Source: Pseudomonas sp. SCB32 (lineage in GTDB: Bacteria; Pseudomonadota; Gammaproteobacteria; Pseudomonadales; Pseudomonadaceae). Taken from it: 64,000 nucleotides of DNA. This document shows, piece after piece, positions 35,767 to 50,553 of this stretch; within the stretch, counting starts at the first letter, position 1, and every line of letters begins with the position of its first letter. A program made the position numbers and the translations under genes. Under the pieces are notes generated by a model, which was not told the DNA's origin, ran no database searches, and saw only the letters and a list, made by a program, of their open reading frames with translations. The stretch lies in assembly GCF_009189165.1 (NCBI RefSeq), contig NZ_CP045118.1, forward strand, positions 2,356,001 through 2,420,000, written 5' to 3'.

Positions 35767-36204
35767 TCAGTCCATGGTGTCCTGGGTGATCCGCACGTCG
35801 GCGAACCACAGCGTTCGCCAACGCGCCATGCGCTCTTGTAGAGGCAGCAGGCGTGGTGAGGCGGGCTGCGGTGCTCCCAGGGTGGCGGGATTATCCAGTA
35901 TCTGGGCGTTCAGTGCAGCGTAGGTTCGGCCATTGTCTTCCCACAACGCGGCGACCAATACGCCACAGTGGCGGCAGAGCAGGAAGTCCACGGTGCCGCT
36001 GCCCTGGTGGTAGCGCAGCGCGTTCGCCGCCGAGCGGCACTGGATGGAAAGTTTTCCCTGGGCGTCGGAAATGTAGGCCGCGCCGTGCTTGCGGCAGAAA
36101 TCGCAGTCGCAGGCACGTGGTGTGAACTGGTCAGGTTTTCGACTGAGTTCGGCCTGAACGGAAATGTTCGCGCAGTGGCAGTGCCCTTGGATGAGGTTCG
36201 TCAT
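35767..36204 (-). CDS. GFA/CENP-V family glutathione-dependent aldehyde-activating enzyme homologue
   Basis: A 145-residue zinc protein. HCHCANISV, CDCDFCRKHGAAYISD and LCRHCG are the Cys ligands of the GFA fold. Members bind glutathione adducts of formaldehyde, but many have unknown function. CAGGAGC precedes the ATG at 36204; the frame is open to 36321. It marks the right end of ordinary sequence before the lower-GC accessory block. Confidence 0.87.
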   Translation of the reverse strand: MTNLIQGHCHCANISVQAELSRKPDQFTPRACDCDFCRKHGAAYISDAQGKLSIQCRSAANALRYHQGSGTVDFLLCRHCGVLVAALWEDNGRTYAALNAQILDNPATLGAPQPASPRLLPLQERMARWRTLWFADVRITQDTMD

Positions 36205-36354
36205 GCTGCCGGCTCCTGAGTTTGCGTCTCGGAGGGTGCAGTCCCTTGCCGTATGGAGCAAGCCTGATCGTGGCTTATGGGGTGAGGCGCCAGGCCTGAA
36301 CGAGCTGCAACGAAAAGGCACCCGGAGGTGCCTTCTCGATTCGCCCGTCGGACA

Positions 36355-37470
36355 TTAAAGGTAAAAGACCGTCAATTGCGCAGTGCCAGTGACCTTTCCT
36401 CCCGTGACCTGTGCAGCGGTGCCGATTCGGTAGTAGGACACGTTCATTTTGATAGGTAAGGCCGAGTTACCTGATGTCGGGCTGTAATCCGATACGACGT
36501 AGCTGGCGTCGCCGAAGCGAATGGGGGCGGTATTGGATTCGTTGGTGATCCGAAGGCCGACGCCTTTCGCCATATTGGCCCCGGTAGCGTTCTGGAAGGT
36601 ACCGTCCGTGGCGCTGATGATCGTACCGATCGGATCGAGCTGATACTTGATGCTGTTCATGCCGCTGGGGCAGTTCCGTAAGGTGAACTGGAAGGGTTTG
36701 GTCTTTACACTCGTTGCCGAGACGAAGTCGCTCTTTTTCGCCGTGTCGAGAATGACATCTGTCCCTTCTGCGGTGCAGCTCAAAGCTTGGAGTGTAACCG
36801 GTCCGATGATGTAGTTCCGGCTTCCGATAGCGGTCGAGAATGTCCCATCGGTTACCTGCGCGGAATTGGTCATCGTGAAGGTTTGTACCGTTCCGGCAGT
36901 AATTCTTCCTGTCTGGATCAGACGAAATTTCAGCTGAGCGCCAAATGAGTAACTGCTCGACCGTGTGTTTTGGCAATACCGATCACTGTATGGGACTGTC
37001 CCTGAGCCGCTGAGCCAAGGGTTCCAGCCATTGACTCCACCATTCTGGTCGCAAAAAGCACCGCTGGTGTAGAGGCGAAATTCGTAAATTATGCCGACGC
37101 CAGGCACGTTGGTATTGAAAACCTTGTAGGTCGTCCCAGCTTCGCTGTAGCTCCCCGCCTGCGCCATGGTGGGGAATTTAATTCCGATACCACCTTTTGT
37201 GCTGTTGCTGAGAGTGCAGGTGTAGATATTGGTTACTGCTTCTCCGGTTACCCAGTTCGAAAGCGGCGCCATTGAAGCACTGTTGTCACGAGGTACCGAA
37301 ATTGGGCTCGGAAAAGTGAAAGTCTCGGCGCTGGAACCGTTGAAGGTGCAGGATGCGGCGGCCATTGAGTTCTGACTCCAGAGAATCATGGAAATTGCCA
37401 GGGAGCCATACGCCGCGGCCGATTGAAGTCTGCGATTCTTTCTCCAGTTCCTGAGTCCACATACATTCAT
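36355..37470 (-). CDS. Orphan chaperone-usher-type fimbrial subunit/adhesin
   Basis: A 371-residue secreted protein with a long signal peptide (basic start to about residue 20, then a hydrophobic run ending near MAAASC). The C-terminal half (about 230-371) has the layout of a type 1 pilin domain: paired Cys (ALSCTAEG and RNCPSGMN), alternating strands, and a donor/acceptor-type end GTAQLTVFYL. The N-terminal half (about 40-215) may be a receptor-binding lectin-like domain, so a tip adhesin is likely. AAGGAG lies 7 nt before the ATG. No usher or chaperone is seen near it. G+C is visibly lower than in core genes. It follows the export operon on the same strand after a 312-nt gap. Confidence 0.75.
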   Translation of the reverse strand: MNVCGLRNWRKNRRLQSAAAYGSLAISMILWSQNSMAAASCTFNGSSAETFTFPSPISVPRDNSASMAPLSNWVTGEAVTNIYTCTLSNSTKGGIGIKFPTMAQAGSYSEAGTTYKVFNTNVPGVGIIYEFRLYTSGAFCDQNGGVNGWNPWLSGSGTVPYSDRYCQNTRSSSYSFGAQLKFRLIQTGRITAGTVQTFTMTNSAQVTDGTFSTAIGSRNYIIGPVTLQALSCTAEGTDVILDTAKKSDFVSATSVKTKPFQFTLRNCPSGMNSIKYQLDPIGTIISATDGTFQNATGANMAKGVGLRITNESNTAPIRFGDASYVVSDYSPTSGNSALPIKMNVSYYRIGTAAQVTGGKVTGTAQLTVFYL

Positions 37471-37782
37471 TGCAGTGCTCCTTAATTAAAGAGGGAGGTG
37501 GTGGCCTGGTGCGAGGGAATCGGAATGAGCTGCACCTTCTTGGCATGTCCAATCCCGACGGGCGCTCGTGACGCAGGCAAAAGGCCTCGACTGTGTCCAC
37601 CAGAGTGAGTGATTAATACCGGATGCTTCGATTCGGGTCTGTCCGAGCACGCGGTCCCGGATGTTGGGAAAATTCTTGTTTTCGCGAGGATTGCTTCTCG
37701 GATTGCGCGACTATTCATAGGCCTGTGGAGGTTTCGAGAGCCTTCAGCCGTGATGTGGGGCCACCTGGGGGCTAGCGCGCTT
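37471..37782. other. 312-nt gap between the acyltransferase and fimbrial genes
   Basis: Apart from the AAGGAG ribosome-binding site (37478-37483) and an AT-rich TTAATTAAAG just above it, I see no gene, clear promoter or terminator here. A frame at 37482-37892 overlaps the acyltransferase end and has no coding character. Confidence 0.5.
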
Positions 37783-38697
37783 TCACTTGGTGGGAGCGAA
37801 GCCGTAGCGGGAGGGGTGATCGGCAAGGATCCAGTTCGGATAGGCATCCCCATAGGCCTGCTCAATGCAGTTCGCCACTTGCTGGGGAGCATCGTCGCGC
37901 TTGAGTTCTATGGGGGCGTAGATCCGGTGGCCGAAGTGTCCCTTCGAGAATGTAATGTGGAAGCACAGCAGTACGGCGTCGACATGGCTGCCAATATTGA
38001 AGACGCCACGGTGCAGACGAGCTGGCCGTCCCAGCATGGAGACCTCGACCGTCTCCATGGGATAGCGTTGCATCGTGTGGGGCGGCGCATCGCTGAACAG
38101 AACCGCAATGCGCTCCTGCCGCAAGGCCCGCATCAGTCTCAGCCCCAGGCCGGAGCGATTGTTTTCATCGTAGGTGTGCAGTATCCGCAGGCCGGGAATC
38201 AGAACGTCTTCGCGATTGCCATAGGCCTCCCGGGGGCTGCCAGATACAACGGCCAACTCCTTGAGGTTCAGTGCCGCACGCATTGCATCGACGACGTAGA
38301 TGTTGGCGTACTCGGAGACGTAGTGAAACGGTGAGACCACCACCGGTCTGCCGGGAGTCTTTTGTTGGATCGCACGTACAGCCTCTGCCAGTTCCCTGGC
38401 CGCCAACTCCAGTTCAGGCCACAGGTGTCCTCTGCCGTACAGCCGTCCCATCTGCATGCGGCGGTCGATCAGGGCTTCCAGTTCCTTGCTGGCCATGGTG
38501 CGCCACTTATCCGCGCGGCTCAGCGAGGTGCTGTCCGCGCCCCACTCGTAGCGAAGCCGGCCGTTCCAGCGCGCATTGGTACTCAATAGGCTGCGCACGC
38601 CCCAGGACAACAGCGCTGTGCGCTCGATTCCCCGTGCGGACAAGGACAGCAACCAGCGGTCCCGCCAGCGAAGTCCCGCTTCAGCTTTCTTGGTCAT
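37783..38697 (-). CDS. LpxL/HtrB-like acyltransferase in the peptide-export operon
   Basis: A 304-residue protein with the layout of the LpxL-type lysophospholipid/lipid A acyltransferase superfamily. VVVSPFHYVSEYANI places His125 and Glu129 where LpxL has its His-x4-Asp/Glu catalytic pair (spacing here is one shorter). VLFSDAPPHTM corresponds to the second acidic motif, and VEVSMLGRPARLHRGVFNIGSHVDAVLLCF to the vFvpFfG..A region. The tail NCIEQAYGDAYPNWILADHP recalls IE..IR..PeqwlW. No N-terminal membrane helix is evident, unlike LpxL. The gene overlaps the TolC gene by 17 nt, so it belongs to the export operon. I infer acylation of the exported peptide or of a lipid needed for it. Confidence 0.7.
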   Translation of the reverse strand: MTKKAEAGLRWRDRWLLSLSARGIERTALLSWGVRSLLSTNARWNGRLRYEWGADSTSLSRADKWRTMASKELEALIDRRMQMGRLYGRGHLWPELELAARELAEAVRAIQQKTPGRPVVVSPFHYVSEYANIYVVDAMRAALNLKELAVVSGSPREAYGNREDVLIPGLRILHTYDENNRSGLGLRLMRALRQERIAVLFSDAPPHTMQRYPMETVEVSMLGRPARLHRGVFNIGSHVDAVLLCFHITFSKGHFGHRIYAPIELKRDDAPQQVANCIEQAYGDAYPNWILADHPSRYGFAPTK

Positions 38698-40000
38698 CGG
38701 AGGTCAACCAGTTGTCGAGCATTTTAATGTCGGCCATTCCCAGGGAAGCGACTTCCGCCTTGAGTGCCAGGTAGGCAGACAGCATCTCGTATTGGGCTTT
38801 GGCCCGTTCGCCACGACTGGCGAACAACACTTCCTGAGCTCTCAGCACATCGAGGTTGGAGCGGCTGCCGGTTCTATATCCGATGCGTGTTGCCTCCAGC
38901 GAGGACTCGTTCAGGCGAACGATTTCTCCCAGTGCATTGCTTCGTTCCTGGGCCCAGTTGAAGCGCTGGAACCACTCTTGGGTATCGGCAGCCGATTTTC
39001 GCGTGGCAGCGAGCAGTGTGTTCTGTGCTTTTTCTTCGCCGGCCACGGCTTGGCGAATGCGAGCCCGGTTTGCACCACCGGTAAACAGCGGGGCCGATAT
39101 GGTGAGCATCGCGCTATTGGTCGTGGTGGGCTCTGAATAGCCAGAGCTGGCGCCAACAGGCGAATGACTGGCAGTCAGGTTGATCACCGGATAACGCTGT
39201 GCGCGAGCCTTCTCGGTATTCTGGTCTGCATTGCGAAGCTCGAGCTTACCGAGCTGAACAGGGAAGCTGTACGTTTCGGCCTGGTGGACCCATTGTTGCA
39301 AGCTCTTGGCTTTCAGCCAGGGCTTCGTGCGTCTTGTCGATGACAGTTCGGTCGGCGTGATATTGCGCCCGGTCAGGGTTGCCAGGGCACGCTGGCTCGA
39401 GTCCAGGGCGCGGAGAGCATCCTGTTGGCGCAACTGAGCCTCGCTCAGGCGTGAAAGGGCTTCCTGCACGTCGATGACCGTAGCCTCGCCGCCAGCTTGC
39501 AGTTTCACGGTCAAGGCGTGTTGTTCCCTGACAGCGCGAAGGTAGTCTGTCGCTCGAGTATGTTCCTGGGTGGCGGCCAGTAGGTCGAAATAGGCATTGG
39601 CACTGCGTAGCACCAGGGCCTGCCAAGTGCTGGCATATTCGAGTTCTGCCTTGGCGCTGGCAATACTTGCCTGGCGAAGTTCGACCCAGCGCTCCCAGTC
39701 GAAGACGGGCTGGGTCAGCGTTACCATCCAGCCGTTCTGCCAGTATTTGGTGGTTGGACCATTGTCAGTCTTGATCTGGTTATAGGTCCGCCCCCAGCCT
39801 CCGTCGAGCCTTGGCAGGAGAGCCGCTCGCGCAAGCGGCACTTCCTCGCGCTCGATCGCGATCTCGGAATTCGCCGCTGAGAGTTCGGCGTCGCGGGCGA
39901 GGGTGTCGTTGATGACGGACAGGAGTTCGCCCGCTGGGGCAACGAGGGGCATGAGTGCAATTCCGAGCCCCACCGTAATCAGTGCTTTCCAGGTTTTCAT
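38681..40000 (-). CDS. TolC-family outer-membrane efflux protein
   Basis: A 439-residue outer-membrane channel of type I secretion/efflux systems. The signal peptide MKTWKALITVGLGIALMPLV is followed by two repeated halves of long coiled alpha-hairpins (AANSEIAIEREEVPLARAALLPRLDGGWG; later QGVAGEEKAQ-type helices) ending in the conserved GxRSNLDVLRAQEVLF region. Its ATG overlaps the ABC exporter stop (ATGA). It completes a dedicated tripartite exporter together with the adaptor and the C39 ABC protein. Confidence 0.93.
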   Translation of the reverse strand: MKTWKALITVGLGIALMPLVAPAGELLSVINDTLARDAELSAANSEIAIEREEVPLARAALLPRLDGGWGRTYNQIKTDNGPTTKYWQNGWMVTLTQPVFDWERWVELRQASIASAKAELEYASTWQALVLRSANAYFDLLAATQEHTRATDYLRAVREQHALTVKLQAGGEATVIDVQEALSRLSEAQLRQQDALRALDSSQRALATLTGRNITPTELSSTRRTKPWLKAKSLQQWVHQAETYSFPVQLGKLELRNADQNTEKARAQRYPVINLTASHSPVGASSGYSEPTTTNSAMLTISAPLFTGGANRARIRQAVAGEEKAQNTLLAATRKSAADTQEWFQRFNWAQERSNALGEIVRLNESSLEATRIGYRTGSRSNLDVLRAQEVLFASRGERAKAQYEMLSAYLALKAEVASLGMADIKMLDNWLTSDDQES

Positions 40001-42096
40001 GCAGGGATACCATTGTGCTGAGCACGGGGAATGAGCCTGCCTTCGATCAGCTGATAGCTACGGTCGAATCGCGACGCCAGCGAGGGGTCGTGGGTAATGA
40101 CGATGATCGTGCGGTCCAGGCGTTGAAGTAAGTCGGCGATACCGGCCACTGAGGCTGGATCGAGGTTGGATGTGGGCTCATCGAGAAGCAGCAGTTCGCT
40201 GTCCTGGTAGAGCGCGCGTGCCAGTAGCAGGCGCTGGCGCTGCCCGGCGGAAATATTCGCGATTGAATCGCTGATGACGGTCTGGGTGCGCATTGGCAGT
40301 CGCATGACGTCGCCCAGCAGGCCGACGTCCTTGAGCAACTGGTTAATCCGGTTGTGGTCGGCATTGGCGCTGAACAACGAAATGTTATCGGCAATGCTGC
40401 CGTTGAGGATCAGGTCGCCTTGGCGCATCTGCGTCATGTGATGGCGCACTTCGTCGACAGCGAGGTTGGCGTAGCTCACATCGTTCAAGCAGATGTCGCC
40501 CTGCTGCACCGGTTCTGCCGCGCAGAGCAGCTTGAACAGCGTCGACTTGCCCACACCGGATGGGCCGACGATGACGATCTTGTCGCCGCGGCGGATGTCG
40601 AGCGATACGCCGTCCAGCACCTGGCGGTCGGATATGCCGTAGCTGAAGCTGACGTCGCGCACCTTGATCGACTCGAGGCGACGCAGTTCTGCAGTTCTTC
40701 CTATCTGTTCAGGCGGGGTGTAACGCTCCGGTTCGTGTTCCACGATATCGGCGACACGCTGCACCGGTACGCTGAGCATGAAGCGACCGAACAAGGCGTT
40801 GATGGACTGGGCCAGTCGCTCGGAGGAGAGGGACTTGTAGATCATGAAGGAGTAGAACACGCCAACGGAGATCTTTCCGTCGAGCATCAGGCCGGCGGCC
40901 AGCCAAGTAATGACGATTACATCGGCGTATTCGACCAGCTTCAATACCGCATCCCGGCCAGCGGTCAGTTTTGCGCTGTGGAGCGCCGCGGCCGCGTTGG
41001 CTCGGAACTTCGCCATGAAGATGGCAGTGCGTCGGGTTTCTCCGCAGGCGAGCTTGATCAGCGACGCGCCACGGACCGTTTCGATCAGCGCGTCGTCACA
41101 CTGCGCCGATCGCTCCAGTACCAGCATATGGGCATCGCGCATCGGCGCGTACAGGGCGAATGCCGTGCCCAGGTACAGAACGAAGATCCCCAGTGCGACG
41201 ATGGCCAGCAGCGGGCTTTGTATCAGCATGAGGGCAATTGCAAGGGAGGCTACTGTGAGGTCGATACGAAGCGAGATGCTTGTCCGCACGGTGTAGTCGT
41301 TGATTTCCTCCTGCGATTTCAGGCGCGCGAACAGGTCGCCGACATTGCGCTTCTCGAAGTAGGAGATGGGGTTTCTCAATAGCTGTCCCAGCAAACCCTG
41401 AGTCACGTTGACGCTGACCAGGGTTCCCGCCAATGCCGTCAGGTAGCCCTGCACGAACTTGCCGAAGGTACCGATGGCGAAGATGCTCGCGAACGTGATG
41501 GCAAGAATGTGCAGCAGGTTGCGGTTGTCGCTGGTCACCACATGGTCGAGGACCAGGTTGCCGAAGTAGGGCATGGCGAGGATGGCGAACTGACTACCAA
41601 TGGCCACGAACATCAACTTGGCGAGTTGGCCACGCAATTGCGGGTTCAGCTTTCGTACCCGGGTCAGTGCGCCGGGAACCTGGGACTTCGCGCGGATACG
41701 GGGAAGCTGGGGCGTCGGCGAGCATTCGAGGAGGTAGCCGGAGACGTTCGCCAGGAACATGTCCAGTGCCAGTCGGCGTCGGCCCGAAGCCGGATCGATG
41801 ATCACTACGTAGTTGCGTCGGACCTTCTCTAACACCACGAAGTGGGCGCCGCCGAAATGCAGGATCGAGCCTGGCTTCAGGTTGGGCATGTCGTTGGCGT
41901 CGAACTGGTAGGCCTGGACGGCGAGGCCGAATTCGGTCGCCACATCGTACAGGTCCATCAGCGTCAGGCCGTTGGATGAAAGGGGGCGGTGTGCGGTGAT
42001 CTCGCGCACCTCGGTTGCGCGCCCCAGGTGCGTCAGCACCATGGCAAGACAGGCGTAGCCGCAGTCTGCGACCTCGTTCTGATAGATGATTCGCAT
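39997..42096 (-). CDS. C39-peptidase-containing ABC exporter (bacteriocin/microcin type)
   Basis: A 699-residue PCAT. The N-terminal C39 protease cuts double-glycine leaders. Gln6 and Cys12 (QNEVADCGYACLAMV), His85 (GGAHFVVLE) and Asp101 (IIDPASG) form the triad, with the same C-H and H-D spacing (73 and 16) that I recall for colicin V exporter CvaB (C32, H105, D121). Six membrane helices follow (about 150-430), then the ATPase with Walker A VGPSGVGKSTL, signature ISAGQRQRL and Walker B LLLLDEP. The ATG at 42096 lies 2 nt after the adaptor stop; the frame is open to 42138. The substrate is probably the peptide at 43508-43657. Confidence 0.95.
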   Translation of the reverse strand: MRIIYQNEVADCGYACLAMVLTHLGRATEVREITAHRPLSSNGLTLMDLYDVATEFGLAVQAYQFDANDMPNLKPGSILHFGGAHFVVLEKVRRNYVVIIDPASGRRRLALDMFLANVSGYLLECSPTPQLPRIRAKSQVPGALTRVRKLNPQLRGQLAKLMFVAIGSQFAILAMPYFGNLVLDHVVTSDNRNLLHILAITFASIFAIGTFGKFVQGYLTALAGTLVSVNVTQGLLGQLLRNPISYFEKRNVGDLFARLKSQEEINDYTVRTSISLRIDLTVASLAIALMLIQSPLLAIVALGIFVLYLGTAFALYAPMRDAHMLVLERSAQCDDALIETVRGASLIKLACGETRRTAIFMAKFRANAAAALHSAKLTAGRDAVLKLVEYADVIVITWLAAGLMLDGKISVGVFYSFMIYKSLSSERLAQSINALFGRFMLSVPVQRVADIVEHEPERYTPPEQIGRTAELRRLESIKVRDVSFSYGISDRQVLDGVSLDIRRGDKIVIVGPSGVGKSTLFKLLCAAEPVQQGDICLNDVSYANLAVDEVRHHMTQMRQGDLILNGSIADNISLFSANADHNRINQLLKDVGLLGDVMRLPMRTQTVISDSIANISAGQRQRLLLARALYQDSELLLLDEPTSNLDPASVAGIADLLQRLDRTIIVITHDPSLASRFDRSYQLIEGRLIPRAQHNGIPA

Positions 42097-42098
42097 GA

Positions 42099-43301
42099 TC
42101 AGCCCCGTATCATCTGGAACAGCGGCTCGAGGACCCATTCGGCGATGGTCCTGCGCTCGATCACTACGCTGGCGCTACCGCGCATGCCCGGGAGAATTTG
42201 CAGGGGCTTGCCGGCTGTACCGAAGGTGTCGCCGGGCAGGGTTGCCCAGGCCATGTAGTTGCTTGTCTCGACGGGCTTGCCGAGTGCCGCGGTCGTGGTG
42301 CTTTCGCTTTTGTTCATGACGGTGTCGGAGATCGACGCGATGCTAGCCTGCACGGCGCCGAAGCGTGCGTAAGGGAAAGAATCCAGCTTGAGGCGCACGA
42401 GTTGTCCCACCTTGACGAAACCACGCTGCCGAGTAGGGATATTCAGTGTCGCCACCAGGGGTTGGCCGGAGTCCGTGTTTATCACTTGGGCGACATCCTC
42501 TGGCTGGAGCATGTGGCCGGCCACCAGGCTGGAAAAAGTCACGGTCCCTGCCTGGGGGGCGTAAACGGTGGTGTTCTGACGCGCTGCCTCATAACGAAGG
42601 CGAATTTCCTGCACGTCGCGATTGAGCTGTGCACCCATTTCGCGTTGTTGAGCCTTCAGTTCCTGCTGGCTGCCACGCAGGGTTTCCAGTTCGCTCACCA
42701 GCGATTGGCGCCGGGCATCACCCTGAGCGATTTCCGCGGAACTCTGGTTGGCTTGCAGGCGTGCCTGCTCTACCCGATCGGCCGTGACATAGCTGGCCAT
42801 GTCTTCCAGGCGTCGGAGAGTGTTGGCGGCATCGGCGGCGATCTGACGGATCCGCGACTGCTGCTTGGCGAGCGCCTGCAGTTCCAGTTCTCTTGCGGCC
42901 GCTGTACGTTCGCTGGCCTGGAGGCGCGCGGTAATCGCTGCAAGCCGGTCCTCGTATTGACTTCTGGCAGTGGCGATCTGTTCGTCGCGCATCGCTTCGT
43001 CGAACTTGGGCTTGGGAGTTCCATCACTCGACAGATTCAGGTCCCGGGCAAGTTCGAATAGTGGCTGCCCCTGCTCGACTTTTTGGCCGGAAATAATATG
43101 TACTGAAGTAACCAGGCCGGTGAGTCCGGTAATCTTGACTTCTGAAGGCGAGACTATTTCGAAGGGAACGTCGCGCTTGAGTTCGATTTCCTGGAAGAAT
43201 GCATAGACGATGGCCAATGCCACCACGAATGAGCTGAAGTAGGCGATCCAGCGCCAGGAAATGTCAGTGAAGCGCGGTAGCTTTTCTGCTTGGATGCTCA
43301 A
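42099..43301 (-). CDS. HlyD-family membrane-fusion adaptor
   Basis: The periplasmic adaptor linking the ABC exporter to the TolC channel. It has one membrane helix near the N-terminus (WIAYFSSFVVALAIVYAFF), a lipoyl half-motif (GLVTSVHIISGQKVEQGQPLFEL), a long coiled-coil hairpin (about 90-230) and the second lipoyl half (VYAPQAGTVTFSSLVAGHML). No ATG exists upstream of the helix; the frame is open to 43397. I take the TTG at 43301, which has AGGTAG just upstream and gives a 400-residue protein with a normal short cytosolic start. A TTG at 43397 is the alternative. It ends 2 nt before the ABC gene. Confidence 0.88.
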   Translation of the reverse strand: MSIQAEKLPRFTDISWRWIAYFSSFVVALAIVYAFFQEIELKRDVPFEIVSPSEVKITGLTGLVTSVHIISGQKVEQGQPLFELARDLNLSSDGTPKPKFDEAMRDEQIATARSQYEDRLAAITARLQASERTAAARELELQALAKQQSRIRQIAADAANTLRRLEDMASYVTADRVEQARLQANQSSAEIAQGDARRQSLVSELETLRGSQQELKAQQREMGAQLNRDVQEIRLRYEAARQNTTVYAPQAGTVTFSSLVAGHMLQPEDVAQVINTDSGQPLVATLNIPTRQRGFVKVGQLVRLKLDSFPYARFGAVQASIASISDTVMNKSESTTTAALGKPVETSNYMAWATLPGDTFGTAGKPLQILPGMRGSASVVIERRTIAEWVLEPLFQMIRG

Positions 43302-43507
43302 GGGGCTACCTGCTGCGGTGTGAAACCGTGCTGTGTCGTTTATTAAGTTTCTCGTGGCCGATGTATGCCGGGATTTGCCGAGCGCTATCCGGCGCAAGGC
43401 CGGACAGCGTCGTAACGCAATAGAACGTCAGGACAGAACAGAGTACGTTCGTCGATCAGTGCTTGATCTGCTGCCGTTGCAGTCCTGAAGTCATCGGCTT
43501 ACACCAA

Positions 43508-43657
43508 TTACGTCGTAGCGGGCGCGCGGGTGGTGCCGCCGCTGCCACCGCCGCTCGGCGGGCACGGAGTGGGGGCCGGAGCCGGTTGATTCTTGGACTT
43601 GCAGCAGCCGCCGGCCAGTTCGGATTTGACGAGTGCGTCGCGCTCTACTTTTTTCAT
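43508..43657 (-). CDS. Double-glycine-leader peptide precursor (49 residues), predicted exported peptide
   Basis: A short gene on the minus strand, 206 nt before the adaptor gene. CAGGA lies 9 nt before the ATG. The product is 49 residues: leader MKKVERDALVKSELAGG (17 residues, Leu at -4 and Gly-Gly at -2/-1), then a 32-residue core. The core starts with Cys-Cys-Lys (residues 18-20) and has a Pro/Ala tract (25-34) with a third Cys at 32. It then has a Gly/Ser tract (SGGGSGG) and the end TTRAPATT. The leader is charged and has no hydrophobic segment, so it is not a Sec signal or lipobox. The -7, -8 and -12 positions do not match the usual double-glycine consensus, so the leader type is divergent. 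The exporter next to it has exactly the protease expected for this cut. I do not recognise the family; bactericidal, signalling or metal-binding roles are possible. Confidence 0.75.
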   Translation of the reverse strand: MKKVERDALVKSELAGGCCKSKNQPAPAPTPCPPSGGGSGGTTRAPATT

Positions 43658-44399
43658 TTGAGATTTTCCTGAGAATTAAGATTTCTTTGGATGGTAAAAT
43701 TTGGTTCGTGTGAATTGTTTAATGCTGAAGGATTGGGATTCGGTTTCGTGTATCTCCTCCCTTGCCGTTGCTTGAATAATTATGAGTATCTCTGGTAGAA
43801 GTTCGTGCATCCAGTATGTGTACTACGAATGCGCTTTCGGATGTTCGAGTACTTTTCATCACGTATGAATGTGAGGTTCGATAAAAATTGGAGCAGTTCG
43901 TGATGCTCTCTGTCGGCTCTTCCAGTTTCGGACGACTTATTCGTGCCGAAATCGAGTGGCTGCCGACGAGGTGAATTTTTTCAGTTTGAGGCGGGACGAA
44001 CAATGTGAATGTGTAAGGTCTTGCGTAGGAATACTCTGAAGTTTCTACTGGCGAGTATCAGCAGTGATAACCAGTTTGGAAATTTTGTAGGGAATTTCAT
44101 GGGGGATCGTTTTTTAACGATGGACTTGCAGCAGTTCTGAGTTTTGTGCGCTCTGTCGCGCTGGCAGCATCCCGTATCCCGGGATGTCGATCTTGTGCAT
44201 GCGTGCAATGGGGGCTGGATCAAGGGAAGGGGAGTGTGAGTGCACCCTTGCGTTCAGGATCGATCAGCTCGAGCAGGGGGCGGAGGGAGAGGAGATGGGT
44301 TGAGCGGCAAAGTGCGCTGTACTAAAGGGGAGGGCGGTCGGATTGGGCCCCCGAAGGACGTCTGGTTTCACTCCGGGGGCTCTGGTGTGGGGGATCGAG
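43658..44399. other. 742-nt AT-rich gap between the peptide gene and metH
   Basis: This is the longest gene-poor stretch here and is clearly poorer in G+C than the core genome. It should contain the promoter of the minus-strand export operon. An ATCGTT/AACGAT hairpin with a T-run lies at 44106-44122. Frames at 43719-44003 and 43981-44223 have no ribosome-binding site or family-like composition. A GC-rich part (about 44240-44399) near metH has a long hairpin GCCCCCG/CGGGGGC (44347-44381) that could end metH transcription, without a T-run. Confidence 0.5.
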
Positions 44400-48092
<3,693 letters not shown>

Positions 48093-48128: not shown

Positions 48129-48264
48129 TGATGATATCAAAGCTGTAGAAAATTTGAGCTTGCGGAGATTTGCATGAAAATCTCTCATGTTCTGCCCTTG
48201 GATAGGCAGCGCCGCGGCGGCGTTCCCGCTAGAATCCGCCCATTCCGAAGGTCTGGAGCCCTAC

Positions 48265-50553
48265 ATGTCCCGGCGAGCACGCTTCACGTTGTTCATCGCA
48301 TCCCTGATGCTTTCCGCGTTTTCCCAGGCCGCGGGCCTGTCCTACACCAAGGACATCCAGCCGATCTTCACCGAGAAGTGCGTGGCCTGCCACGCCTGCT
48401 ACGACTCGCCGTGCCAGCTCAACCTGACCGCCGCCGAAGGCGCTCAGCGCGGGGCCAACAAGCTGCCGGTGTACGACGGCTCGCGGACCAAGGCGGCGGA
48501 CACCACCCGCTTGTTCCTCGATGCCCATGGCGCGGATGCCTGGCGACGCAAGGATTTCTGGCCGGTACTCGACGGCCGGGGCAGCCAGGCCGCGCTGATG
48601 GCGCGGATGATCGACCTGGGCCATGCACACCCGCTGGTGCCCAACGAGAAGATTCCGGATGGACTCGACCTGTCGATCAACCGCACCAACCAGTGCCCGA
48701 CGCCCGACAGCATCGACGACTTCGTGCAGAAGAACCCGCGCAGCGGCATGCCCTTCGCCGTCACCGGCCTGACCGATAAGCAACTCTCGACCATCAAGAC
48801 CTGGCTGGCCCAGGGCGCGCCAGTGGACGAGCAGGCCTGGCAGCCGAGCGCGGGCGAGGCGGGCCAGATCGCCGATTGGGAGGGCTTCCTGAACCAGCCC
48901 GGCGCGCGAGAGAGCCTGGTTTCGCGCTGGCTCTACGAGCACCTGTTCCTGGCGCACCTGTACTTCACCGAGAATGGCCAGACGGGGCACTTCTTCCAAC
49001 TGGTGCGCTCGCGCACGCCCAGTGGCCAGCCGATCGACCCGATTGCCACCCGCCGTCCGAACGATGACCCGGGCAACAATTTCTACTATCGCCTCTGGCC
49101 GATCCAGGGCGTGATCGTGCACAAGACGCACATTACCTACCCGCTCAACGCGGCCAAGCTGGCGCGCACCCAGGAACTGTTCTACGGCACTGACTGGAGC
49201 ACCGACATGGTGCCCGGCTATGGGCTGCTGCACCGCGCCAATCCGTTCGAAACCTTCGCCGCGATCCCGGCCCAGGCGCGCTACCAGTTCATGCTGGACA
49301 ACGCCGAGTACTTCGTCCGTACCTTCATCCGCGGGCCGGTGTGCCGTGGGCAGATCGCCACCGACGTGATCCGCGACAACTTCTGGACGGTGTTCCAGGA
49401 CCCGCAACACGACCTCTACGTCACCGATCCGGATTTCCGCGCCCAGGCCTCGCCGCTGCTGGCGCTGCCGGGGCAGATCGATGGCATGGGCGCGATGCTG
49501 TCGCAGTGGCGCGCCTACCGCGACAAACGCAATGCCTACGAGGAGCTGCGCCAGGATTTCTACGATGAGGCCCCGGCGCCGACCTGGGCCGACCTCTGGG
49601 CCGGCAACGACAACGCCGTGCTGAGCATCTTCCGGCAGTACGACAGCGCCTCGGTACGCAAGGGGCTGATCGGTGGCATCCCGCAGACCATCTGGTGGCT
49701 CGACTACCCGCTGTTCGAGCGCACCTACTATGGCCTGGTGGTGAACTTCGACGTTTACGGCAACGTGGCTCACCAGGCGCAGACCCGGCTGTACTTCGAC
49801 CTGATCCGCAACGGCGCCGAGCAGAACTTCCTGCGCCTGATGCCGGTGGCCGCACGCAAGCCGCTGCTGGATGACTGGTACCAGAACAGCGGCAAATTCA
49901 AGATGTGGGCCGACTACTACACCAGCGACAGCACCCGGCCGACCGGACTGTTCCTGCCGGAGAAGGGCGCCAAGAACGCCTTTGCCCAGCAACTGCTCAA
50001 GCGCTACGTGGCGCTCAACGCACGGCCCGATCCGATCAATATGTGTGAGAGCGGCGCCTGCTACCGCAACAACGTCGCCGCGCCGCTGCAGGATGCCGAG
50101 CAGTTCTTCAGTCGCCTGGTCAGTCGCCCGGCGGCGGGGCTCTCGGTGATCGACTACTTCCCCGAAGCGACCATGCTGCGAGTAGAGCTGCCTGACGGCC
50201 AGCGCGAGATCTATACCGTGCTGCGCAACCGCGCCCACAGCAACGTCGCCTTCATCGCGGGCGAGTCGCTGCGCTACCAGCCGGGGCTGGATACCCTGAC
50301 CATCTACCCCGGCGTGCTCTCCAGCTACCCGAACTTCATGTTCAATCTGAAGGCAAACGAGGTGGGCGACTTCGTCCGTGCGCTGGAGCAGGTCAAGGAT
50401 CAGGTCGCATTCGACGAGGTTGTGGATCGCTGGGGTATCCGCCGCAGCCATCCGCAGTTCTGGTTCTACTTCCATGACCTCGACGCCTATATCCGCGAGA
50501 CCGAGCCGGTGGAGGCGGGGATTCTCGACATGAACCGCTACGAGAACCTCTGA
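48265..50553 (+). CDS. cti: Fatty acid cis/trans isomerase (periplasmic, heme c)
   Basis: Cti converts cis- to trans-unsaturated phospholipid acyl chains, stiffening the membrane under solvent or heat stress. The 762-residue protein has a signal peptide (MSRRARFTLFIASLMLSAFS) and a c-type heme motif CVACH at 39-43 followed by a Cys-rich segment ACYDSPC. Length and ends match the Pseudomonas enzyme. The ATG at 48265 has GGAG 6 nt upstream; the frame is open to 48187. It is divergent from metH with no gene between them. Confidence 0.96.
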   Translation: MSRRARFTLFIASLMLSAFSQAAGLSYTKDIQPIFTEKCVACHACYDSPCQLNLTAAEGAQRGANKLPVYDGSRTKAADTTRLFLDAHGADAWRRKDFWPVLDGRGSQAALMARMIDLGHAHPLVPNEKIPDGLDLSINRTNQCPTPDSIDDFVQKNPRSGMPFAVTGLTDKQLSTIKTWLAQGAPVDEQAWQPSAGEAGQIADWEGFLNQPGARESLVSRWLYEHLFLAHLYFTENGQTGHFFQLVRSRTPSGQPIDPIATRRPNDDPGNNFYYRLWPIQGVIVHKTHITYPLNAAKLARTQELFYGTDWSTDMVPGYGLLHRANPFETFAAIPAQARYQFMLDNAEYFVRTFIRGPVCRGQIATDVIRDNFWTVFQDPQHDLYVTDPDFRAQASPLLALPGQIDGMGAMLSQWRAYRDKRNAYEELRQDFYDEAPAPTWADLWAGNDNAVLSIFRQYDSASVRKGLIGGIPQTIWWLDYPLFERTYYGLVVNFDVYGNVAHQAQTRLYFDLIRNGAEQNFLRLMPVAARKPLLDDWYQNSGKFKMWADYYTSDSTRPTGLFLPEKGAKNAFAQQLLKRYVALNARPDPINMCESGACYRNNVAAPLQDAEQFFSRLVSRPAAGLSVIDYFPEATMLRVELPDGQREIYTVLRNRAHSNVAFIAGESLRYQPGLDTLTIYPGVLSSYPNFMFNLKANEVGDFVRALEQVKDQVAFDEVVDRWGIRRSHPQFWFYFHDLDAYIRETEPVEAGILDMNRYENL

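Follow-up and report, generated by a model that had tools for sequence, protein, structure and literature searches.

RTX toxins activated by HlyC are large proteins that receive acyl groups on lysine while still in the cytoplasm and are then secreted by type I export. Class II microcins are described as carrying a Gly-Gly or Gly-Ala leader of 15–18 amino acids (aa) with hydrophobic residues at positions −4, −7 and −12, and as containing 12–26% glycine (PMC11494933). Fatty acylation is reported on Lys1 of one ribosomally synthesized and post-translationally modified peptide (RiPP) lipidated by a GNAT-type enzyme (PMC13060382), and the acyl chains added by VexE in the Vi capsule pathway are described as needed for efficient polymer export and surface anchoring (PMC9597891). 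Here we analyzed a 64,000-nucleotide (nt) stretch of the Pseudomonas sp. SCB32 genome (contig NZ_CP045118.1, positions 2,356,001 to 2,420,000), hereafter the window, and compare with these systems a minus-strand operon of five genes encoding, in order, a small precursor peptide, an HlyD-type adaptor, a C39 ABC exporter, a TolC-family protein and an LPLAT-type acyltransferase. We hold it about evenly probable that this operon produces a peptide, lipidates it and secretes it, the acyltransferase acylating the core of the precursor, most likely on the lysine at core position +3 (Lys+3).

Precursor family and C39 exporter

The precursor gene (43508..43657, read from 43657) encodes 49 aa, a 17-aa leader ending in Gly-Gly, MKKVERDALVKSELAGG, followed by a 32-aa core, CCKSKNQPAPAPTPCPPSGGGSGGTTRAPATT. 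This core opens with CCKSKNQPAPAP, which places a Lys at +3. A genome scan with an alignment of 18 acyltransferase sequences yielded 59 related loci, in which the acyltransferase is present by construction because the loci were found through it, while the presence of the other genes is not given. Small open reading frames (ORFs) related to the precursor precede the exporter genes in 58 of these loci; the remaining one (L067) belongs to a Candidatus symbiont whose ABC gene was matched only in part. The sequence-only reading of this DNA had named, as one of two findings that would refute it, related operons in which no small gene is conserved at this place, and its idea survives this comparison.

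We aligned 73 distinct precursors, two of them from the protein collection, leaving out L025 and L035 as near-duplicates of L034 and discarding by eye false leader-pattern matches in L016, L017, L019, L020, L036, L046 and L047. The leader is 17 residues long in 70 of the 73, and among these 70 Arg6, Leu9, Gly16 and Gly17 are invariant while Ile, Val or Leu occupies position 4. The cores, in contrast to this uniform leader, are hypervariable, mostly cationic and polar; their lengths span 17–51 residues, with Ser, Thr, Ala, Pro and Lys abundant. Lys+3 is nonetheless present in 68/73 precursors, and 71/73 have a Lys among the first four core residues. A further 33 precursors outside the alignment, for which the leader pattern and Gly-Gly but not Lys were required, have Lys+3 in 31 cases and a Cys start in only nine; most of their loci were reached via a Lys-containing profile, so that they are not fully independent, and one of them (L110) is identical to the L025/L035 sequence. 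The Cys-Cys-Lys start emphasized by the sequence-only reading thus needs revision in its Cys-Cys part, which often varies: Cys occupies +1 in 56 of the 73 cores and Cys-Cys opens 48, some cores have five Cys, and 16 have none, for which reason we rejected Cys-Cys as the functional heart of the core.

Judged from these comparisons, the precursor ORF is more than a chance occurrence, because related small ORFs recur in 58/59 loci, their codons look to be under selection and motifs resembling ribosome-binding sites are enriched before them (39/72 precursors versus 1094/16318 plus-strand ATGs of the same loci). Nonsynonymous and synonymous differences per site (pN/pS) show purifying selection on codons 2–20: three groups of Paraburkholderia have 0.008/0.321, 0.011/0.268 and 0.019/0.202, and three Pseudomonas sequences 0.129/0.331. 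Two to four precursors occur in nine of the 59 loci, namely L037, L039, L044, L049, L050, L054 and L061, most of which are from Caballeronia, and L051 and L060 from Paraburkholderia, and many of their cores resemble xxK(A/S)SSSS..TNTTVTISI. Seven genomes contain at least six precursor matches each, some far from the exporter. In L117–L124, L126 and L128 the precursors are distant from the exporter, and by eye some lie near ORFs for Lrp-like regulators or trimeric autotransporters; in one group (L119, L120, L124, L126 and L128) the cores are longer and their ends resemble VNGKTVVDRTVTY.

Annotation can readily overlook such a family. When 5.8 billion predicted proteins were searched with a profile, 10 precursor matches were returned among the best 8000 candidates scored, whereas the 73 distinct sequences and 33 more were obtained mostly from DNA; the protein collection holds two annotated relatives from Pseudomonas. 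The core was not one that the sequence-only reading recognized, and indeed neither Pfam nor NCBIfam has a model that the window peptide matches at E≤0.001. The same searches with 74 precursors gave only scattered matches of one to five members each, the best being to SCIFF (E 0.0006, one member) and listeriolysin S (E 0.0016, five members), and all were taken as noise from Cys runs or low complexity. Neither the precursor nor the acyltransferase family is named by any model of Pfam, NCBIfam or PADLOC at the cut-offs used, and no description of the operon or precursor family was found in the open-licence PMC literature, subscription papers being outside its scope.

The exporter genes follow the precursor on the same strand. 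The HlyD-type periplasmic adaptor of about 400 aa (42099..43301) is listed as an ORF from 43397; its start is more likely the TTG codon at 43301, because the relative in genome G022 shares this TTG and the residues after it and the DNA match ends at the TTG. Taking this start, 206 nt separate the adaptor from the precursor stop. The C39 peptidase-containing ABC exporter (39997..42096; ORF listed from 42138) lies 2 nt beyond the adaptor gene, which ends at 42099, and overlaps by 4 nt the gene of the TolC-family outer membrane factor (38681..40000), identified by domain search, which in turn overlaps the acyltransferase gene by 17 nt. Gene order, gap and overlaps agree with those first proposed. 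Pfam detected HlyD_3 and OEP on the adaptor and outer membrane proteins, and Peptidase_C39 (E=4.9e-28) together with ABC membrane and ATPase domains on the exporter, whose triad C12/H85/D101, counted from the Met15 start at 42096 (C26/H99/D115 of the 713-aa ORF), aligns with that of the solved bacteriocin transporter 8vp3. The locus thus has what defines a C39 type I export system, namely a triad-bearing C39 domain fused to an ABC protein, an adaptor, a TolC-type channel and an adjacent peptide with a Gly-Gly leader, and the earlier proposal of a double-glycine peptide export operon with an intact C39 exporter is borne out by the domain matches and the triad. Scans of 37400–44500 found no promoter, where 2.2 were expected by chance, and six terminators against 6.9 by chance; no known RNA family reached its gathering score in 36000–45000.

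Acyltransferase and its co-inheritance with the precursor

The last gene of the operon (37783..38697) encodes a 304-aa protein without any Pfam match above cut-off, PF03279 included, that weakly matches the NCBIfam model for phosphatidylinositol mannoside (PIM) acyltransferases and Lip_A_acyltrans. A PDB sequence search with its family profile returned no match up to E=1. Its modelled fold is that of PatA and LpxM, at 10–17% identity to the solved chains, which is the fold of the LPLAT superfamily. His125 is invariant in the family, as is Asp203 (56/56), while the acid of the HX4D/E motif is replaced by Tyr130 in the window protein and the family as a whole has HX4Y/F (56/56). According to published descriptions, PatA and LpxL/LpxM have an invariant His and an acid in a later block (PMC4792965), and active VexE likewise departs from HX4D/E with a Tyr in the motif (PMC9597891).

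Relatives of the acyltransferase number 124 in the protein collection (E≤1e-5). Those named among the matches listed are mainly from Pseudomonas, Burkholderia, Paraburkholderia, Caballeronia and Cupriavidus, with single representatives from Dyella, Variovorax and a record labelled Enterobacterales. Among plasmids, one match was obtained, on a 1.3-Mb Caballeronia replicon. All 59 loci contain HlyD and ABC genes (partial in several) and 57 contain TolC, which is missing from L021 and from L045, the latter at a contig end. The acyltransferase gene precedes HlyD in 54 loci and comes last, as in the window, in five (L012, L013, L014, L021 and L033).

The sequence-only reading had listed the acyltransferase alongside the exporter; it is not an accessory. 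In 249 genomes of Burkholderiaceae (the family of L015), the precursor profile matched 29 genomes (E≤1e-4), the acyltransferase 28 (E≤1e-15) and the window HlyD 27 (E≤1e-30), and all three occur jointly in the same 27. The acyltransferase thus accompanies the precursor as tightly as does the adaptor and is as much a part of the system. One genome (G161) has an acyltransferase match only, and a weak one (65 bits). Likewise, among 25 genomes of the window's genus, strong precursor matches and the acyltransferase are found in the same three; weak precursor matches in G015 and G018 (E 0.005–0.04) were taken as noise; the frame at G018:C258 is open. Damage is seen in two of the 27 carriers: the matches to acyltransferase, HlyD, ABC and TolC are fragmented in G271 (L133), and in G273 (L130 and L131) HlyD is split, its parts lying about 0.7 Mb apart with the distal part abutting the start of an usher gene, which looks like a rearrangement through both the HlyD and usher genes. 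The operon copies in L133 and L067 have a decayed appearance.

Inserted segment and adjoining adhesin genes

The operon lies within a segment (36220..44400, the left edge being approximate and the right edge the metH stop codon) that is absent from six congeners examined. In two of them, G024 and G009, the matching flanks, one in the gene near 36.2 kb and the other starting at the metH stop, are separated by only 96 and 75 bases (L135 and L138), hence about 8.2 kb are extra in the window; the four other non-carriers also lack the operon. G+C content is 58% in the segment versus 63–65% outside, and third-position G+C is 0.64–0.78 in its genes versus 0.93 in metH, the single flanking gene measured. 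Absence from congeners and low G+C suggest that the segment was gained horizontally. The closest named acyltransferase relatives outside Pseudomonas among the matches listed are from Burkholderia and Cupriavidus, with the exception of the Enterobacterales-labelled record. While the five genes first delimited as 37783..43657 stand, the inserted unit is therefore wider, beginning near 36.2 kb and reaching about 44.4 kb, and carries a gene for a fimbrial adhesin-like protein (36355..37470, minus strand; Pfam Fimbrial, residues 231–370).

This adhesin gene is an orphan, since none of the three usher genes of the genome is close by; the nearest precedes the window by about 132 kb. It adjoins the operon in all three carriers of the genus, with 64–66% identity in the other two; remaining matches in the genus have 27–45% identity, and some match is found in 6/25 genomes. 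By tblastn on flanks of up to 10 kb, shorter in several loci, a fimbrial usher or adhesin gene is present at 20 of the 59 loci (usher in 16), downstream in L012 and upstream in the rest. The start of a divergent YadA-type trimeric autotransporter is found at 10 more, nine by motif and L062 by eye, that of L024 being confirmed by Pfam. Adhesin genes thus adjoin 30/59 loci, and 29/59 show neither type. Since eight checked genomes hold just one to five usher genes each, this closeness looks more than fortuitous, although related loci are not independent and the comparison is an informal one. In L037, L039, L044, L050, L061 and L063, an usher, an adhesin, a shorter fimbrial-type match, the precursor or precursors, the acyltransferase and the exporter are consecutive on one strand, as if they formed one super-operon. 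The ORF at L125:7477–8067 has no Pfam match and is probably in the wrong frame.

Upstream of the precursor, 43658–44400 is AT-rich (49.5% G+C) and yielded no site in a sigma-70-like scan; its blastn match to the carriers G022 and G008 ends after the first 15 bases. Beyond the segment, a fatty acid cis/trans isomerase (CTI) gene adjoins metH on the plus strand (48187–50553), and a long ORF antisense to it (48229–50475) has no Pfam match.

Proposed lipopeptide pathway, alternatives and known systems

We infer the following order of events. The uniform 17-residue leader would mark the precursor for recognition, and the LPLAT-type enzyme would add a fatty acid to the core in the cytoplasm, from an acyl-acyl carrier protein or acyl-coenzyme A donor, before cleavage and export. 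As the core residue that is best kept while the rest changes, Lys+3 is the foremost candidate for the site; its side-chain amine would be the most likely acceptor, with the N-terminal amine or a Cys thiol as alternatives. The C39 domain would then cut after Gly17, and the ABC–HlyD–TolC conduit would export the lipopeptide. Through its acyl chain, the core, which is short, polar and fast-changing, could be retained at a membrane or cell surface, the chain anchoring it on the outer face much as the product of VexE anchors the capsule. The recurring adhesin neighborhood points to a role in attachment, and the peptide probably acts at the surface, either helping cells to attach or mediating encounters with hosts or neighbors, which we offer as a conjecture. 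Somewhat less confidently than for lipidation itself, we propose that an LPLAT-fold enzyme has switched its substrate from lipids to peptides and acylates Lys+3 of dozens of hypervariable cores sharing one leader, in a system centered on Burkholderiales, transferred to Pseudomonas as well and working with surface adhesins, that would represent a new class of ribosomal lipopeptides. We know of no peptide-modifying member among lipid A-type acyltransferases; if correct, our proposal would mean that an enzyme of this type can lipidate peptides. With one nearly invariant Lys and one enzyme, the idea is directly testable.

Several points weigh against the lipopeptide proposal. The acylated product is a prediction, and Lys+3 could instead serve cleavage or export. 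Lys is absent from the first four core residues in 2/73 and 1/33 precursors (L123 for the latter), and the L132 precursor has a Lys only at +6. G209 and G244 contain precursors without an acyltransferase or HlyD match, on contigs of only 9–31 kb. Asp203 is assigned as the counterpart of PatA Glu200 by position and modelled fold, and a profile comparison of the acyltransferase with the two lipid A acyltransferase-family proteins encoded in the same genome gave no significant match. PatA and LpxM (PMC4792965) as well as VexE (PMC9597891) are described as acting on lipids or sugars rather than peptides.

The enzyme might accordingly act on a membrane lipid (lipid A, a phospholipid or similar), protecting the producer or aiding the exporter while the peptide leaves unmodified. 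Its fold, shared with enzymes that act on lipid A and PIMs, is consistent with this scenario, as is the lack of any other immunity candidate near the precursor, and yet we consider it unlikely: it leaves the near-invariant Lys+3 unexplained, and the two lipid A acyltransferase-family genes elsewhere in the genome imply that lipid A itself can be made independently of this one. An antibacterial system of the class II microcin type appears more doubtful still, in spite of the Gly-Gly leader, C39 exporter, adaptor, TolC and hypervariable, mostly cationic cores. The leader length is that of class II microcins, and position −4 is hydrophobic in 70/70 leaders. In contrast, −7 is hydrophobic in only 2/70 and otherwise polar, and −12 in 0/70, being always Arg, so that the microcin comparison of the sequence-only reading is a poor fit. 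Glycine accounts for 7/49 residues of the window peptide and reaches at least 12% in 20/70 precursors. The cores, 17–51 residues long, are of a polar type with much Ser, Thr, Ala and Pro. As the sequence-only reading had noted, no usual immunity gene was found: the minus strand of 42001–44402 has no ORF of 25–160 aa with a membrane-like stretch. Having failed on the leader rule and the immunity gene, identity with class II microcins was rejected; what the two have in common is a Gly-Gly leader and a C39 ABC exporter, and they differ in leader pattern, core type and immunity gene.

Slightly less probable again is a secreted signal to host or kin resembling RaxX, with a minor or absent acyl group. 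Several carrier genera of the 59-locus scan are known from plants and soil. The clustering of a Gly-Gly precursor, a modifying enzyme and a C39 exporter follows the logic described for raxX-raxSTAB (PMC6637879), but core variation is too great for one receptor, and receptor genes were not searched for. We regard a Cys-rich secreted peptide for metal binding or redox chemistry as very improbable: the 48 Cys-Cys starts and the cores with five Cys are set against 16/73 Cys-free cores and 24/33 others without a Cys start. Anti-phage defence was also considered and rejected, as PADLOC matches (13 families, mostly ATPases) fall on the ABC protein and none on five other scanned proteins.

Among described systems, HlyC and the RTX toxins would share with the proposed lipopeptide pathway the acylation of lysine before type I export; the window acyltransferase has no HlyC-family domain, nor have 18 members of its family at E≤1. 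The Vi pathway of VexE has an ABC exporter in the same cluster. VexE itself is described as an LPLAT-domain protein with a Tyr in HX4D/E, as in the window enzyme, and a His/Asp pair, to which His125 and Asp203 may correspond, acting on UDP-GlcNAc for a polysaccharide and bearing a TPR domain, as opposed to a 304-aa protein and a peptide here (PMC9597891). PatA, LpxL and LpxM have in common with the window enzyme the fold and the invariant His, and Asp203 is the candidate counterpart of their later-block acid (PMC4792965); unlike PatA and LpxM, it lacks the HX4D/E acid, scores below the PF03279 cut-off and goes together with a peptide exporter. A leader peptide is likewise combined with a fatty acyltransferase in selidamides, nostolysamides and other GNAT-lipidated RiPPs, the selidamide type being described with a GNAT enzyme and a lanthionine synthetase (PMC13060382), whereas the window operon has an LPLAT-type enzyme and neither of these domains was found by Pfam or NCBIfam among its proteins. 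In raxX-raxSTAB of Xanthomonas, compared by description only, a Gly-Gly precursor, a dedicated modifier and a C39 exporter are clustered as they are here, the modifier being a tyrosine sulfotransferase instead of an LPLAT-type protein and TolC a core gene instead of a member of the operon (PMC6637879); no sulfotransferase was detected among the operon proteins by Pfam or NCBIfam. In its logic the system resembles RaxX-RaxST, HlyC-HlyA and VexE alike; by the features tested it belongs to neither of the first two, and its likeness to VexE is one of description.
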